Positions 4,694 through 14,910 of a stretch of DNA of 23,031 bases are shown piece after piece. The position numbers were made by a program, and so were the translations under genes. The stretch is from positions 1 to 23,031 of the IMG/VR virus record IMGVR_UViG_3300044951_000555; one strand, 5' to 3'. How positions within the stretch are numbered: position 1 is the stretch's first letter; each line of letters opens with the position of its first letter. Source of the stretch: a virus. The notes beneath the pieces are model-generated. The model was given only the letters and a program-made list of their open reading frames with translations, had not been told where the DNA came from and did no database searches.

Positions 4694-4929
4694 AAATACA
4701 AATTGACGAAATAGAAGACCAATACTACATAGAATTAATGGCAAGATGGAGGACACAAACAGGGTACAATATAGTGTATTCAAACCAAAAACTCAAGGAG
4801 GGCGACATTGTAAAGGTAGAGCAGCAAAGACCGAGTTTGTTTAGAGTGTTAAAAGTGTGCAGGCTTGAAACATGGTGGAATCGCATGAGCGTTAAGCGTA
4901 AAACAGCAAGATTGTTTAAGGGGGAATAA
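4690..4929 (+). CDS. Small basic phage protein of unknown function (79 residues)
   Basis: Begins at ATG 4690, overlapping the previous stop by four bases. The sequence has an acidic start (IQIDEIEDQYYIELMARW) and a strongly basic, tryptophan-containing end (ETWWNRMSVKRKTARLFKG). LKEGDIVKVEQQRPSLFRV is a beta-strand-rich middle, perhaps an SH3-like or nucleic-acid-binding fold. No family recognised. Confidence 0.7.
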   Translation: MKIQIDEIEDQYYIELMARWRTQTGYNIVYSNQKLKEGDIVKVEQQRPSLFRVLKVCRLETWWNRMSVKRKTARLFKGE

Positions 4930-4934
4930 ATCAG

Positions 4935-5195
4935 ATGTATTGTTTACACTGTGGAGATTGTTGTTCAAGAATGAGCCCGATTAATGGCGGAGAGTGTCCT
5001 CACCTTATATGGAAAGACAAATATTGTTTTTGTACTATATACGAGAGCAGACCTAAAGAGTGCAGTAATCATAAATTTGATACACAGTTTTGCCCAATTG
5101 GACTAAGCCATTTCAAGTTCAATGGTAAAGACATAGACAAAATTGGTGAGCATCTCAAATTAGCATATAAATTATTTAAGGAGGAAAAGCAATGA
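4935..5195 (+). CDS. YkgJ-like cysteine-cluster protein (Zn/Fe-binding)
   Basis: An 86-residue protein with nine cysteines, mostly in the first 53 residues: C3, C6, C9, C10, C21, C31, C33, C43, C53. The pattern CxxCxxCC, then CPHL, then CxCxIYESRPKEC matches the cysteine-cluster signature of the YkgJ family, proposed to bind zinc or an iron-sulfur cluster. Small versions occur in phage genomes, with no established function. It follows a ggggga site and overlaps the next gene by four bases. A link to the putative Fe-S PP-loop protein upstream is speculative. Confidence 0.8.
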   Translation: MYCLHCGDCCSRMSPINGGECPHLIWKDKYCFCTIYESRPKECSNHKFDTQFCPIGLSHFKFNGKDIDKIGEHLKLAYKLFKEEKQ

Positions 5196-6183: not shown

Positions 6184-6311
6184 ATAAGTTTTGGAAGCAA
6201 ATAACCTGCTTTCACAATTACAAGTTAAGAATATTAATTCTAAACAAAAAACCGTTGTATAAGAGATTGACGCATATTTGTTCAAAGTGCGGGAAGGAGT
6301 GTAAAAGGTGA
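6180..6311 (+). CDS. 43-residue basic protein with C-terminal CxxC knuckle
   Basis: Starts at ATG 6180, overlapping the previous stop, and ends TGA 6309-6311, overlapping the GTG start of the next gene. The product is highly basic (many K/R) and ends HICSKCGKECKR, a half zinc-ribbon-like CxxC...C. An earlier C10-x-H12 could complete a metal site. Overlaps at both ends and an aggagcaaaac site support translation. Function unknown; small basic zinc-knuckle proteins often bind nucleic acid. Confidence 0.6.
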   Translation: MNKFWKQITCFHNYKLRILILNKKPLYKRLTHICSKCGKECKR

Positions 6312-6754
6312 GAGAAATACAATTAACAAACGGAGGGGTGGCGCGCGTAAGCGACGAAGATTACGAAAGAATTAATGTAAACAAGTGGCGGAAAAACACA
6401 GTTGCAAAAAATTTAACGTATGCGGTTAGAACGGTGGTAACAAACGGGAAGTGCGAGGCGGTATATATGCACCGTGAAATATTAGGCGGAGGCAGATGCA
6501 CCGACCACATCGACGGGGACGGGTTGAATAATGTAAGGGAAAACATTAGGAGTGTAACGGTGAGGCAAAACGCGCAGAACAGGCACGAGAGCAAGGTGTC
6601 AAAATACGTAGGCGTGGCAAAGGAAAGAGATAAGTGGATGGCACATATACGCATAGAGGGGAAGAAAATACGGATAGGGGCGTATTGTATCGAAGAAGAC
6701 GCAAGACGGGCGTACATAGCAGAATTGCAGAAAATAGGCGAGGTGATGTTATGA
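6308..6754 (+). CDS. HNH endonuclease with C-terminal AP2 DNA-binding domain
   Basis: A 148-residue protein with a GTG start. Residues 53-91 hold the HNH core: MHREI, D66-H67 in TDHIDGDGLNN, N74/N75 and the RQNAQNR end (HNH_3 type). Residues 99-141 (KYVGVAKERDKWMAHIRIEG, then AYCIEEDARRAYI) are an AP2/ERF-like domain that would bind DNA. This is the standard design of free-standing phage homing endonucleases. The gene overlaps both neighbours by four bases (gtga/atga), so it is seamlessly coupled to the operon, unlike the cassette at 14266. All visible catalytic positions are present, so it is probably active. Confidence 0.9.
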   Translation: MREIQLTNGGVARVSDEDYERINVNKWRKNTVAKNLTYAVRTVVTNGKCEAVYMHREILGGGRCTDHIDGDGLNNVRENIRSVTVRQNAQNRHESKVSKYVGVAKERDKWMAHIRIEGKKIRIGAYCIEEDARRAYIAELQKIGEVML

Positions 6755-7170
6755 AGTTTGACCACATTAGGGATTATGCAAGCGACGCATTTAGATTTTA
6801 TTATCAAAGCGGGGGCGTGGAAAAGTACATAAACAACAAGTTGTGCGACATGGACAAGGGGGGAGCGGGAGTTAGCAACCCAACAGAGGCGGCGTTGATA
6901 CATCGAGAACGCGTATACGACGAAAAACACGCGGAAATAGAGGACTTAATAGCGGTAGACAATGTAATAAAGATATTAGACGCAAACGGACACACGAAGG
7001 CAAAAACAGCGGTAGAAACGGTATATTGTGCGGAGTGCAAGGAACGGGGTGAAATAAAAATTAAAGTAAGCGAGGTTTGCGAAAAGGTTGGGGCAACGGA
7101 AAGAGACATATACAGGGCGTTGAAAATGGCGAGAGATTTATTCGCAGTAGAAAGAAAACTGAGATTGTAA
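6751..7170 (+). CDS. Probable phage late-gene transcription regulator (HTH, RinA/ArpU-like position)
   Basis: The start is ATG 6751, overlapping the previous stop, giving 139 residues. The N-terminal half is helical and charged. The C-terminal part (about 105-130), KVSEVCEKVGATERDIYRAL, is a good helix-turn-helix of the sigma-region-4-like type. Two cysteines in VYCAEC (93, 96) might bind metal. It is the last gene before the late promoter at 7190 and the terminase genes, exactly where Gram-positive phages carry RinA/ArpU-family activators or related regulators. The role of switching on the head genes is inferred from position and the HTH; it could act at the promoter or at the terminator that follows it. 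Confidence 0.65.
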   Translation: MKFDHIRDYASDAFRFYYQSGGVEKYINNKLCDMDKGGAGVSNPTEAALIHRERVYDEKHAEIEDLIAVDNVIKILDANGHTKAKTAVETVYCAECKERGEIKIKVSEVCEKVGATERDIYRALKMARDLFAVERKLRL

Positions 7171-7189
7171 GAAAATTTCGGAAAAAGTG

Positions 7190-7219
7190 TTGACAGTTAA
7201 GAGGGGTATTTGCTATAAT
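7190..7219 (+). promoter_or_regulatory. Consensus late promoter with extended -10
   Basis: TTGACA at 7190-7195 and TATAAT at 7214-7219 are both perfect consensus hexamers, spaced by 18 bases. TGC just upstream of the -10 makes an extended -10. It lies in the gap after the putative regulator gene and before the terminase genes, so it is the likely start of late transcription, with initiation near 7226. An intrinsic terminator follows at 7257-7289. Confidence 0.85.
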
Positions 7220-7256
7220 GTTAATAGTTAGTGAAGATAGCTAAATAAGCGAGAGC

Positions 7257-7289
7257 AAAAGATGCCGTAACTGATATGGCGTCTTTTTT
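7257..7289 (+). terminator. Intrinsic terminator/attenuator just after the late promoter
   Basis: Bases 7261-7269 pair with 7275-7283 (gatgccgta against tatggcgtc, two G-U pairs), with a five-base loop. The hairpin is flanked by AAAA and followed by six T (7284-7289). This is a classic intrinsic terminator. From a start near 7226 the released RNA would be only about 60 bases. It lies between the late promoter and the first late gene, so either it must be overcome for head gene expression or the short RNA is itself a product. Confidence 0.8.
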
Positions 7290-7359
7290 GTTGGGTATGA
7301 AATCCATAAGCGTAAAAGCGGGCAGGGGCGGGAGTCAATGGATTAGAACAGGGGGAAAT

Positions 7360-7695
7360 ATGACAATACAAATGGTTGACGTTAAAGAAATGAAGCCAGC
7401 CAAGTATAATCCTAGAAAGGATTTAAAGCCAGCGGATAAACAATATCAACATATAAAAAACAGCATAGAAACGTTTGGATATATAGAGCCTATTGTGTGG
7501 AACAAAAGAACAGGAAACATAGTTGGAGGGCACCAACGATTTAAAATATTAAAAGCACAGGGTGACAAAGAAGTAGAGTGCGTTGTGGTTGATTTTGACG
7601 ACGCGAAAGAAAAAGCCGCGAACGCAGCGTTAAACAAAACAAGCGGGAGGTTGTGCAACGATAAGGAATCACAACAGAGAGCGCGAGCAATTTGA
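7360..7695 (+). CDS. ParB-like nuclease domain protein, probably C-terminally truncated
   Basis: The start is ATG 7360, behind a gggggaa site; the open frame upstream crosses the terminator and is not used. The 111-residue product has the ParB/Srx fold signature: KYNPRKDLKP (15-24), IKNSIETFGYIEPIV, and GGHQRFKIL (56-64), the conserved GxHR-like nucleotide-binding motif. Phage members normally run on after ALNK(I/T)SG with a W-containing, leucine-rich C-terminal part. Here the protein stops soon after NKTSGR, in an unrelated charged tail. Phage ParB-like proteins often sit beside DNA methylases or terminases and may bind or nick DNA. Likely a truncated remnant that may still fold. Confidence 0.75.
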   Translation: MTIQMVDVKEMKPAKYNPRKDLKPADKQYQHIKNSIETFGYIEPIVWNKRTGNIVGGHQRFKILKAQGDKEVECVVVDFDDAKEKAANAALNKTSGRLCNDKESQQRARAI

Positions 7696-7822
7696 TTTGT
7701 TACAGCAAAAATGGGGAAGCGAGATAATACAAAGGGACAAGGGTAAGAACAGCAACACATTAAAAACACGGGCAAACGTAGATTATAACCCTATATTGCA
7801 CGTACCAATAGCAGGCATATAA
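7634..7822 (+). pseudogene. Degenerate coding-like segment after the ParB fragment
   Basis: A second frame is open from 7634 to TAA 7820-7822 without a good start or ribosome binding site. It encodes a protein-like stretch: NREREQFDLLQQKWGSEIIQ, later NVDYNPILHVPIAGI. It overlaps the last 60 bases of the ParB gene in another frame, as expected if a deletion or frameshift joined the ParB fragment to the tail of another gene. No family recognised; the region 7696-7846 otherwise holds no gene. Confidence 0.3.
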
Positions 7823-7846: not shown

Positions 7847-8173
7847 ATGCACGCAGGGGGAAGGCCGAAGAAAACAATCGATTATGAACTGGTCGGTAAG
7901 TTAGCCGCAATACAGTGCACGGAGTTAGAATTAGAGGGCATATTAGGCGTAGACGTGCGGACGATGCAACGGGACAAAGAGTTTTGTCGCGTATATCATT
8001 CAAAAAGACAAGAGGGGCACGCATCATTAAGACGTATGCAATGGAAAGCGGCAGAGAAGGGCAATTCTACAATGTTAATATGGTTAGGAAAGCAGTATTT
8101 ATCGCAAGTAGACAAGAACGAGGTCACGGGCAAGGACGGCGGGGAAATATCAATCAAGATAGTAGGCGTATAA
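7847..8173 (+). CDS. terS: Terminase small subunit
   Basis: A 108-residue protein lying one base before the large subunit gene. The start MHAGGRPKKTIDYELVGKLA is the usual opening of small terminase subunits, followed by a helix-turn-helix (ELELEGILGVDVRTMQRD) that would bind the packaging site. The C-terminal half (SLRRMQWKAAEKGNSTMLIW, then LGKQYL) is the typical oligomerisation region. It recognises phage DNA and stimulates the large subunit. The start has a moderately spaced aaaggg site. Identification rests on motif style and position together. Confidence 0.85.
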   Translation: MHAGGRPKKTIDYELVGKLAAIQCTELELEGILGVDVRTMQRDKEFCRVYHSKRQEGHASLRRMQWKAAEKGNSTMLIWLGKQYLSQVDKNEVTGKDGGEISIKIVGV

Positions 8174-8174
8174 C

Positions 8175-9404
8175 ATGGAAATGAGGGTAAATAAAATATA
8201 TTTGCCGTACATAAAGCAATGTGAGGACGTAGACGTTATTATATTATATGGGGGCTCGTCGTCGGGAAAGTCAGTATTTATGGCGCAGAAGGTTATTGCG
8301 GACATTACGTCGGGTATAGGGAGTTATTTGGTTGTGCGTAACGTTGCGAAGACAATTCGGGCGAGCGTATTCAACGAAATACAGAAATGTATTACGATGT
8401 ACGATTTAGAAGGCGCGTTCAGTGTCAACAAGACGGACATGGTAATAACATATAAGAAAAACAGGAATCAAATATTGTTTGCGGGGTTAGACGACGCACA
8501 GAAGCTAAAGTCTATTACACCAATAAAGGGAGTAATAGAAAAGATATGGATAGAGGAAGGCACAGAAGTCAGCTATCAGAGTTACAAAGAATTAACGAAG
8601 CGGTTGCGTGGCGAAACGTCGGGGAAGAAGCAGGTGATAATAACATTTAATCCGATATTAAAAACGTCGTGGATATATACAGAGTTTTTTAATGGTTGGG
8701 AAGATAGTAAGCGCGAATTTAAAGGCAACGGGGTCGCAATATTAAAAACAACGTACAAGGACAACGCGTTTTTAACAGAGGACGATAAAAAATTATTAGA
8801 GAACGAAACGGACGAATATTATTACAACGTTTACACGTTAGGCAATTGGGGCGTGTTGGGCGCGGTAATATTCAAGAATTGGTCGGTTGAGGATTTATCA
8901 GAAATGAGGAAAACGGCTGATAATTATTGCAATGGTTTGGATTTTGGCTTTGCAGAAGATGAAGCAGCATTAATTAGGGTGCATTATGACCGCAAACATA
9001 AAAGCATATATGTGTTAGACGAATTGTATGAAAAAGGATTAACCAATGATGTATTGGCACGCGAAATAAAAAACATAATTGGATACGAATACGTAACTTG
9101 TGATTCAGCAGAGCCGAAGTCCATACAGGAATTAAAAAACGAGGGTATTTCTGCGTTAGGCGCAAAGAAGGGCAAGGACAGCGTGCAACACGGGTTACAA
9201 TGGTTACAACAGCACAAAATATTTGTTGATATGCGTTGTCAGAATTTTAAAAATGAGATAGCGCAGTATAAATGGCAAGAGGACAAACAAGGGAATGTAA
9301 TACCAATACCGGTTGGAAAGCGTGACCATTTAATTTCAGCGTTGAGATATGCGTTAGAGAGGGAAGCAAAGACATCAATTGGGTTCGTAAACATAAACAT
9401 ATAA
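8175..9404 (+). CDS. terL: Terminase large subunit, PBSX-like
   Basis: A 409-residue packaging motor and nuclease. The ATPase domain has Walker A GGSSSGKS (26-33) and Walker B ending KIWIEEGTE, with E127/E128 as acidic/catalytic residues, then IITFNP as the coupling motif. The C-terminal RNase H-like nuclease has D256 (GLDFGF), D310 (CDSAEPKS) and D384 (RDHLISALRYAL). All key residues are present, so the enzyme should be active. Size and motifs fit the Terminase_3/XtmB (PBSX) group. An ATG at 8181 is an alternative start. CpG content appears to fall sharply at about 8900, close to the domain boundary, suggesting a recombination joint. Confidence 0.95.
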   Translation: MEMRVNKIYLPYIKQCEDVDVIILYGGSSSGKSVFMAQKVIADITSGIGSYLVVRNVAKTIRASVFNEIQKCITMYDLEGAFSVNKTDMVITYKKNRNQILFAGLDDAQKLKSITPIKGVIEKIWIEEGTEVSYQSYKELTKRLRGETSGKKQVIITFNPILKTSWIYTEFFNGWEDSKREFKGNGVAILKTTYKDNAFLTEDDKKLLENETDEYYYNVYTLGNWGVLGAVIFKNWSVEDLSEMRKTADNYCNGLDFGFAEDEAALIRVHYDRKHKSIYVLDELYEKGLTNDVLAREIKNIIGYEYVTCDSAEPKSIQELKNEGISALGAKKGKDSVQHGLQWLQQHKIFVDMRCQNFKNEIAQYKWQEDKQGNVIPIPVGKRDHLISALRYALEREAKTSIGFVNINI

Positions 9405-9418
9405 GGATAGGGCAAACA

Positions 9419-10063
9419 ATGAGAATAGGCGTATACCAAATACAAATAAACGAAAAGAAATATATATGGAGCACAACGGTAGGATTTAAAAAGCGATGGG
9501 CGGAGCACTTGAGGAAATTAAAAAGTGGGAAGCATTCAAATAAGTATCTACAAAATATGTTTAATAAATATGGGGCGGAGTCGTTGATTTTTACTATAAT
9601 TGAAGAAGTAGAGGACAAAGAAAAGATGCTTGCATACGAACAAGCGCATATTGATAAGGTGAATCCAGAATTAAACATATGTAGAATAGCAGGAAACACG
9701 TTAGGATACGGACACACGCTAGAAACAAAAGAAAAGCAAAGAAGAAAAAAAGATGGGGTTTATTTAGGTAAAAATAACCCGTTTTTTGGAAAGACGCATT
9801 CCGACGAACAAAAACAAAAATGGTCAGAAGACAGAAAAGGCAATTATAAAAGCATGGACAAAGCAAGGTTGGCGTCTATTGAAAAAATTAAAAGGGCGGT
9901 ATTAAACATTGACACAGGCATAAAGTTTGAATCAATTAAAGAAGCAGCAGAGCATTATAATCTAAAAAGCACGCACATAACACGGGTATGTGTTGGAAAA
10001 AGAAAACACACAGGTGGGTATGCGTGGGAATATATTATACAAGGGGAGGGTACAACGTGTTAA
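9419..10063 (+). CDS. GIY-YIG endonuclease-like protein with NUMOD domains, altered signature
   Basis: A 214-residue protein between terminase and portal. The N-terminal domain follows the GIY-YIG plan: GVY (4-6), then YIW (15-17) in place of YIG, the conserved arginine R26 in KKRW, and E74 (LAYEQAHI) as the metal-binding glutamate. The gap between the two motifs is about two residues shorter than in the intact copy at 14266. Residues 117-136 (GKNNPFFGKTHSDEQKQKW) resemble NUMOD3. Residues 158-207 (VLNIDTGIKFESIKEAAEHY, then CVGKRKHTGGYAWEYI) are NUMOD1, as in modular homing endonucleases. The changed YIG makes activity uncertain. Its last 23 bases contain the portal ribosome binding site and start. 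Confidence 0.85.
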   Translation: MRIGVYQIQINEKKYIWSTTVGFKKRWAEHLRKLKSGKHSNKYLQNMFNKYGAESLIFTIIEEVEDKEKMLAYEQAHIDKVNPELNICRIAGNTLGYGHTLETKEKQRRKKDGVYLGKNNPFFGKTHSDEQKQKWSEDRKGNYKSMDKARLASIEKIKRAVLNIDTGIKFESIKEAAEHYNLKSTHITRVCVGKRKHTGGYAWEYIIQGEGTTC

Positions 10064-14216: not shown

Positions 14217-14245
14217 TTGACACCCACACCTTTTTATGATATAAT
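14217..14245 (+). promoter_or_regulatory. Perfect consensus promoter of the GIY-YIG cassette
   Basis: TTGACA at 14217-14222 and TATAAT at 14240-14245 with exactly 17 bases between; TGA before the -10 gives an extended -10. It lies 21 bases before the endonuclease start, within the late operon. It would make the endonuclease, and by read-through the capsid gene, independent of the late promoter. Confidence 0.85.
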
Positions 14246-14265: not shown

Positions 14266-14910
14266 ATGCCAATTAAAAACCATATATCCGGTATATATTG
14301 CATTAGAAACACAATAACAAACAAGGTGTATATCGGACAATCCAAGTCTTGTACCACGCGATGGCGCGGACATAAAAGCGAATTAAAAGGCGGGTATCAT
14401 GGCAATAGTTATTTACAGGCATCTTATAACAAGTATGGGTTAGAGGCTTTTGAATATTCTATCCTTGAAGCCTGTATTGAAGATCAGCGCGATCAACGCG
14501 AGTTATATTGGATTGGGTTTTATAATGCCACAGACAGAAGTTGTGGATATAACAGATTGTTTGGAGGCTGTCAAAACAAAAATCATTCACAAGAAACAAA
14601 AGATAAAATTCGCGAAGTTCTCAAACAAAAAAACATTACGCCTCCGAGTAGAAAAGGGGTAAAATGGTCAGAAGAACATAAAGCACACATGTCTGAAATG
14701 ATGACAGGAAGAAAGTTGCCGCCATGTTCAGAAGAAAAGAAAGAAAAACTTAGATTAGCTAACTTAGGGAAGAAAGCGTCAGAAGAAACGAGAAAAAAAC
14801 TAAGTGAAGCAAAGATTGGCAATAAAAACATGGTTGGATTTCATGTTTCTGACGAAACAAAGCAAAAAATATCCTTAGCTCAAAAAGGGGTACCAAAGAG
14901 GCAAAAGTAG
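14266..14910 (+). CDS. GIY-YIG homing endonuclease with NUMOD3 repeats
   Basis: A 214-residue protein with an intact GIY-YIG domain: GIY (9-11), YIG (22-24), R32 (TTRW) and E79 (QRELYWI). The C-terminal half carries several NUMOD3-type motifs of the form S-E-E-x-K...K-x-S/L-A-x-x-G, at about 105-125, 133-149, 154-169, 172-185 and 195-208. These are DNA-binding modules of homing endonucleases. The start follows aaggagttgat by eight bases. The gene has its own promoter (14217-14245) and terminator (14938-14966), so it is a self-contained unit between scaffold and capsid genes. It resembles the 9419 protein around the core (YLQ...NKYG.E) but is otherwise diverged. Probably active. Confidence 0.92.
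   Translation: MPIKNHISGIYCIRNTITNKVYIGQSKSCTTRWRGHKSELKGGYHGNSYLQASYNKYGLEAFEYSILEACIEDQRDQRELYWIGFYNATDRSCGYNRLFGGCQNKNHSQETKDKIREVLKQKNITPPSRKGVKWSEEHKAHMSEMMTGRKLPPCSEEKKEKLRLANLGKKASEETRKKLSEAKIGNKNMVGFHVSDETKQKISLAQKGVPKRQK

Follow-up and report, generated by a model that had tools for sequence, protein, structure and literature searches.

A candidate pR'-tR'-like switch for late-gene control at the early/late junction of a phage genome

The window analyzed here is a linear viral record of 23,031 bases (IMGVR_UViG_3300044951_000555), in which a promoter at 7190-7219 is followed at once by a terminator hairpin at 7257-7287, directly behind a gene for a small helix-turn-helix (HTH) protein (6751-7170; Table 1). 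This unit probably controls the late genes of a ~37-kb phage and would work as a pR'-tR'-like switch requiring antitermination, with the 6751-7170 protein as its likeliest agent. Host polymerase would start unaided at the full-consensus promoter and halt ~62 nucleotides (nt) further on at the terminator (7257-7289), which would double as the end of the early operon, whose final gene is the presumed regulator. The late genes (7360 onward: terminase, head, tail, and lysis) would come on once polymerase from this promoter becomes terminator resistant, most likely through the action of the 6751-7170 protein at or near the promoter. What carries this proposal is read from sequence: the parts and the order in which they stand, the absence of a further good promoter, and the recurrence of the layout in other phages.

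Promoter and terminator at the early/late junction

The promoter (TTGACA, an 18-nt spacer, and TATAAT) agrees with the consensus at 12 of 12 positions. Two 12/12 promoters occur in the window (7190 and 14217), compared with a mean of 0.0225 in dinucleotide shuffles, or 0.0025 with TG. The second (TTGACA-17-TATAAT with TG, at 14217) adjoins a GIY-YIG/NUMOD3 endonuclease gene and has no terminator behind it. The stop codon of 6751-7170 lies 19 nt ahead of the -35 element, and no direct repeats (regulator sites) were found at the 7190 promoter in 7080-7300.

The stem begins 37 nt past the -10 and ~31 nt past the expected start, and the predicted terminated transcript is ~62 nt long. By itself, the hairpin folds at -15.5 kcal/mol with a z-score of -5.7 against shuffles, on which a chance fold was rejected; the 64-nt RNA of 7226-7289 folds at -19.1 kcal/mol (z-score, -4.1), and no shuffle was equally good. 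It is the window's sole tight coding-strand hairpin with at least six T's. A simple terminator scan overlooked it because the stem extends into the T run, and a stricter scan detected it. Promoter and hairpin have no gene between them, so that 7190-7219 was rejected as an early-gene promoter, and the first late open reading frame (ORF) with a ribosome-binding site begins at 7360. A preliminary description of this DNA had reported a consensus extended -10 promoter followed by a six-T hairpin with no late gene between them, all of which is borne out. Its placing of the hairpin close behind the start also holds, and its distance of about 40 bases is replaced by the two values given above, ~31 nt to the stem and ~62 nt to the RNA end.

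A 37,362-b contig contains the window, and one of its ends repeats the other over 127 b (window coordinates); the genome is very probably complete and circularly permuted, at ~37.2 kb, and its convincing genes are all on one strand. Its coding strand has three tight hairpins with at least six T's: (i) after the endolysin gene, (ii) before the second early promoter, and (iii) at 7257-7287. The first two precede the next promoter, and the promoter-then-terminator order is found only at the early/late junction. The top promoter candidates on the coding strand are a pair of early promoters, 7190-7219, and one ahead of the GIY-YIG endonuclease gene, and the stretch from the hairpin to the late genes has no promoter matching at 10 or more of 12 positions. 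Because there is no good promoter downstream, the late operon must be read through the hairpin, from the 7190 promoter or from upstream; because no other good terminator separates the early from the late genes, the early operon must also end at the hairpin.

Table 1. Coordinates of the promoter, the terminator, and flanking genes in the window
Feature	Position	Strand	Remarks
HTH protein, 139 amino acids	6751-7170	+	Closes the early cluster; may be a late regulator or antiterminator
-35 element TTGACA	7190-7195	+	Sequence reading
Extended -10 element TGCTATAAT	7211-7219	+	TG at 7211-7212, TATAAT at 7214-7219; start expected at ~7226
Short untranslated leader	7226-7256	+	ORF and direct repeats absent
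13-bp terminator hairpin AAAAGATGCCGTA-ACTGA-TATGGCGTCTTTT	7257-7287	+	Arms 7257-7269 and 7275-7287; 5-nt loop
T6 tract of intrinsic terminator	7284-7289	+	RNA end predicted at ~7287-7290
First late ORF with ribosome-binding site, ParB-N-like fragment	7360-7695	+	PF02195, E 2.6e-9; phrog_620, E 1.8e-31
Probable small terminase (terS)	7847-8173	+	Weak phrog_309 match, E 0.008; position ahead of terL
Large terminase (terL)	8175-9404	+	PF04466, E 1.5e-46

Recurrence of the order behind late-regulator genes

In a first survey, ~145 loci around relatives of terL were searched for a strong promoter followed by a terminator within 10-110 nt. Such pairs numbered 7 in 255 kb in the region up to 2 kb upstream of terL, 2 in 267 kb further upstream, and 2 in 723 kb downstream, and none appeared when the upstream set was shuffled five times; two of the seven upstream pairs (L129 and L130) have the hairpin within a gene, leaving fewer clean cases. 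Four loci (L216, L223, L224, and, by inspection, L244) carry a regulator, a consensus promoter, a hairpin, terS, and terL in this order. Their regulators are small sigma-like HTH proteins, with the promoter at or shortly past the stop codon, and no further homologues of the L223 regulator were found.

The second survey comprised 29 phrog_36-type regulator loci, which were chosen by family score and come partly from related phages, so that the following counts do not represent independent events. A strong terminator starts within 150 nt past the stop codon of 22 of the 29 regulators, compared with 39 of 313 ordinary genes (12.5%), and a -10 lies between stop codon and terminator in 20 of these 22 loci versus 7 of the 39 controls (combined P of 8e-7 for the phrog_36-type -10s against shuffled leaders). 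Many of these loci have, in our reading, short repeats spaced by roughly one helical turn instead of a -35. At ~10 loci of the survey the next start codon stands 27 to 37 nt past the T run, which leaves no room for another promoter.

Several named phages with RinA and Ltr regulators, well-studied Staphylococcus phages included, have the same layout. Among the CHARACTERISED phages, rinA of phi11 is followed by repeats, a -10, GGGTTGGCTGATTATAGCCAATCC-T6 at +114, and terS at +187. Most of 22 distinct RinA intergenic sequences carry the phi11-type hairpin; in four the leader is longer and of another kind, and a contig end truncates two. Behind ltr of phi13 come repeats, TTATTATAAT, and then AACTCTCAC-ATTAA-GTGAGGGTT-TTTTT at +64, and in relatives of this regulator (phiRS7, GXN2, IME1354_01, QT1, StB12, and BE21) the stems differ and the pairing is kept (z-scores of -4 to -6). 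RinA of THSA-485A shows the same order, with the terminator at +69. In TP901-1 and A118, the hairpin stands right before terS, yet farther from the regulator. Leaders between the late-regulator region and terS contain tRNA-like sequences in TP901-1 (L280:1987-2562) and Marinitoga virus 1 (L286:3521-3929).

The preliminary description had set its proposal of an antitermination or attenuator switch against a plain RinA-type activator. This contrast fails, since phi11 RinA, most of the 22 RinA intergenic sequences, phi13 Ltr, and THSA-485A RinA share the order. The proposal itself fares better: the order is real, and its recurrence behind small late-regulator genes matches the prediction of an antitermination switch. 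The promoters seem to come in two versions, one with a consensus promoter (this window, L216, L223, L224, and L244) and one with repeats plus an extended -10 (many phrog_36-type loci, phi11, and phi13). Control would lie mostly at termination in the former, and activation and antitermination might be coupled in the latter.

Published work on phi13 bears on the crossing of the hairpin. Mutation of the promoter upstream of the hairpin abolished late-gene expression, and a shared ~6-kb transcript was interpreted as cotranscription of terL and mcp (PMC13123087). Because late genes need a promoter that lies upstream of the hairpin, phi13 polymerase must cross the hairpin in vivo. The reporter used in that study stops 50 bp past the start site (PMC13123087); by our count, this end falls inside the T tract, so that the hairpin was kept and the tract cut, and the reporter therefore could not reveal a termination step. 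The main text of that paper contains no word starting with "terminat" (PMC13123087), and a literature search that did not cover the original report on Ltr (Quiles-Puchalt et al.) found no paper on a terminator behind RinA/Ltr promoters or on antitermination by RinA/Ltr.

The candidate regulator and alternative explanations

The 6751-7170 protein matches phrog_31049 in a profile search (E 1.2e-18; residues 4-139 of 139). A prophage protein of Sedimentibacter hydroxybenzoicus is 41% identical to it and has a comparable setting, with a terminator 92 nt past the stop codon, a weaker -10 candidate before it (TATTAT with TG, no -35), and further downstream a terminase-like gene named by sequence and position only. 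Searches of phages by tblastn with both proteins gave no match, and the structural model of the 6751-7170 protein had no PDB match with an E value below 0.001.

By analogy, the unit would function like the lambdoid Q switch and is positioned like the RinA/Ltr systems. It shares with Q and pR'-tR' a regulator gene immediately upstream, a strong full-consensus promoter, a promoter-proximal intrinsic terminator (here by sequence and fold only), late genes behind, and a predicted short terminated RNA. In lambda, the terminator is much farther from the promoter than in this phage. Unlike Q, the 6751-7170 protein has no Pfam match to the Q families (PF03589, PF06530, and PF06323 [PMC7171158]), which places the system outside those families by domain content. 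A Q binding element and a sigma-dependent pause were not identified here, and efficient termination at the hairpin, the existence of an antiterminator, and its identity as the 6751-7170 protein are what we infer. As for the RinA/Ltr systems (phi11 RinA, phi13 Ltr, and 55-2 LtrC), the terminators of phi11 and phi13 likewise stand directly behind the promoter. They differ in that phi11 and the majority of phrog_36-type loci carry repeats but lack a -35, whereas this phage has a full -35 and no direct repeats; moreover, their sequence relation to 6751-7170 is weak, and RinA/Ltr proteins are known as activators.

Several points weigh against the proposed antitermination switch and against this protein as its agent. 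Its matches to the late-activator families phrog_248 and phrog_836 are weak (E values of ~1e-3), an hhalign comparison with phrog_36-type regulators gave an E value of 2e-4 at a probability of only 44%, and no recognized antiterminator domain was found in it. AlphaFold without an alignment modeled it poorly (mean predicted local distance difference test score, 52). RinA and Ltr proteins have been described as activators of initiation (PMC13123087). At 26 loci, -10-like sites that might serve as a sigma-dependent pause element were not enriched over shuffles. Other contigs with the promoter-hairpin site belong to the same virus and are 100% identical there, so that they provide no close comparison for this hairpin. 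The Staphylococcus phages L349 (RinA) and 55-2 (LtrC) share one long leader behind different regulators, and a regulator therefore need not act on the leader. The sharing of a long leader between regulator and terS by a RinA phage and an LtrC phage (L349 and L375) means that leader and regulator are exchanged independently; the leader shared by L349 and 55-2 is compatible with recognition at the promoter or, in those phages, with a cis-acting RNA.

The most serious rival is a leaky terminator of the early operon, with the strong promoter yielding enough read-through without an antiterminator and the regulator, if relevant, acting on initiation only. We consider this unlikely, even though it requires no new function, agrees with the activator role of known RinA/Ltr proteins (PMC13123087), and builds on a hairpin that, as the only good early/late terminator, must end the early operon anyway. 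A terminator serving the early operon alone should stand before the late promoter, as terminators do at this genome's two other junctions. A position behind the promoter taxes every late transcript, and the repetition of this placement in many unrelated phages is left unexplained.

A functional small RNA of ~62 nt made from the promoter and hairpin, with late control secondary or elsewhere, had been offered in the preliminary description as the other option and appears improbable, with nothing specific in its support. The unit does have the anatomy of a small-RNA gene and a very stable fold, and the small RNA StxS of Stx phages is processed from the terminated pR'-tR' transcript (PMC7873438), a precedent for a possible stable RNA that comes from a late promoter and is terminated early. 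In contrast to StxS, however, nothing in this phage points to a stable RNA, to targets, or to conservation. An Rfam scan of the window returned nothing at gathering scores (near the site, three sub-threshold chance matches, none covering the hairpin), and a DNA similarity search for the site among phages gave no match. A pattern of the -10 and a hairpin arm had 73 matches in viral contigs, and among these TTGACA with a closing hairpin and a T run occurred only in the same virus; the sequence was thus not found in any other virus. Among phages the leaders vary freely while the place of the hairpin is kept, and there is no other good late promoter, so that the late operon would still cross the hairpin.

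Very improbable is a cis-acting RNA attenuator, in which an alternative leader fold, a ligand, or translation would open the hairpin without an antiterminator protein: long leaders common to some Staphylococcus phages with different regulators are as expected for a cis-acting RNA, but only ~31 nt of leader precede the stem here, and the leader has neither a stable competing fold nor an ORF with a ribosome-binding site and matches no riboswitch.

The antitermination switch proposed for this phage has a wider form, which we advance tentatively and somewhat doubt: RinA/Ltr-type regulators, 6751-7170 included, may be both activators of initiation and processive antiterminators, passing a tR'-like terminator after each late promoter. 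If true, the lambda Q strategy would have arisen a second time, independently, in processive antitermination by RinA/Ltr. The promoter-terminator layout is possibly general to RinA/Ltr-type phages. Descriptions of late control in phages of Gram-positive bacteria have RinA/Ltr proteins activating initiation, and the recurrent terminator suggests a second step at termination. Such a step would bear on phage induction and on RinA/Ltr-dependent satellites and plasmids.

Neighboring genes and other features of the genome

The ParB-N-like gene (7360-7805) apparently loses its frame near 7640-7690, later codons being in another frame, and the sequence at this frame loss is identical in other contigs of the virus. 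The window encodes three homing-type endonucleases, HNH/AP2-type and GIY-YIG, at 6308-6754 and 9419-10063, plus 14266-14910, the last being the GIY-YIG/NUMOD3 gene, which is inserted just ahead of the major head gene. No integrase was recognized among the translations and scanned proteins of the genome.

Outside the window, the coding strand of the early region of the same genome carries two type-P5 twister ribozymes (RF02684; L288:4505-4557 and L288:5880-5932, both minus strand), whose matches exceed the gathering score (E values of ~1e-8). The two early promoters (L288, ~6280-6360 and 4925-5000, minus strand) contain a near-identical block of ~70 bases (TTTTACAAAACGCTTGAC...GGTATTATTGAC.TATAACAAAGGCGCACACAGG), which is probably a common operator.
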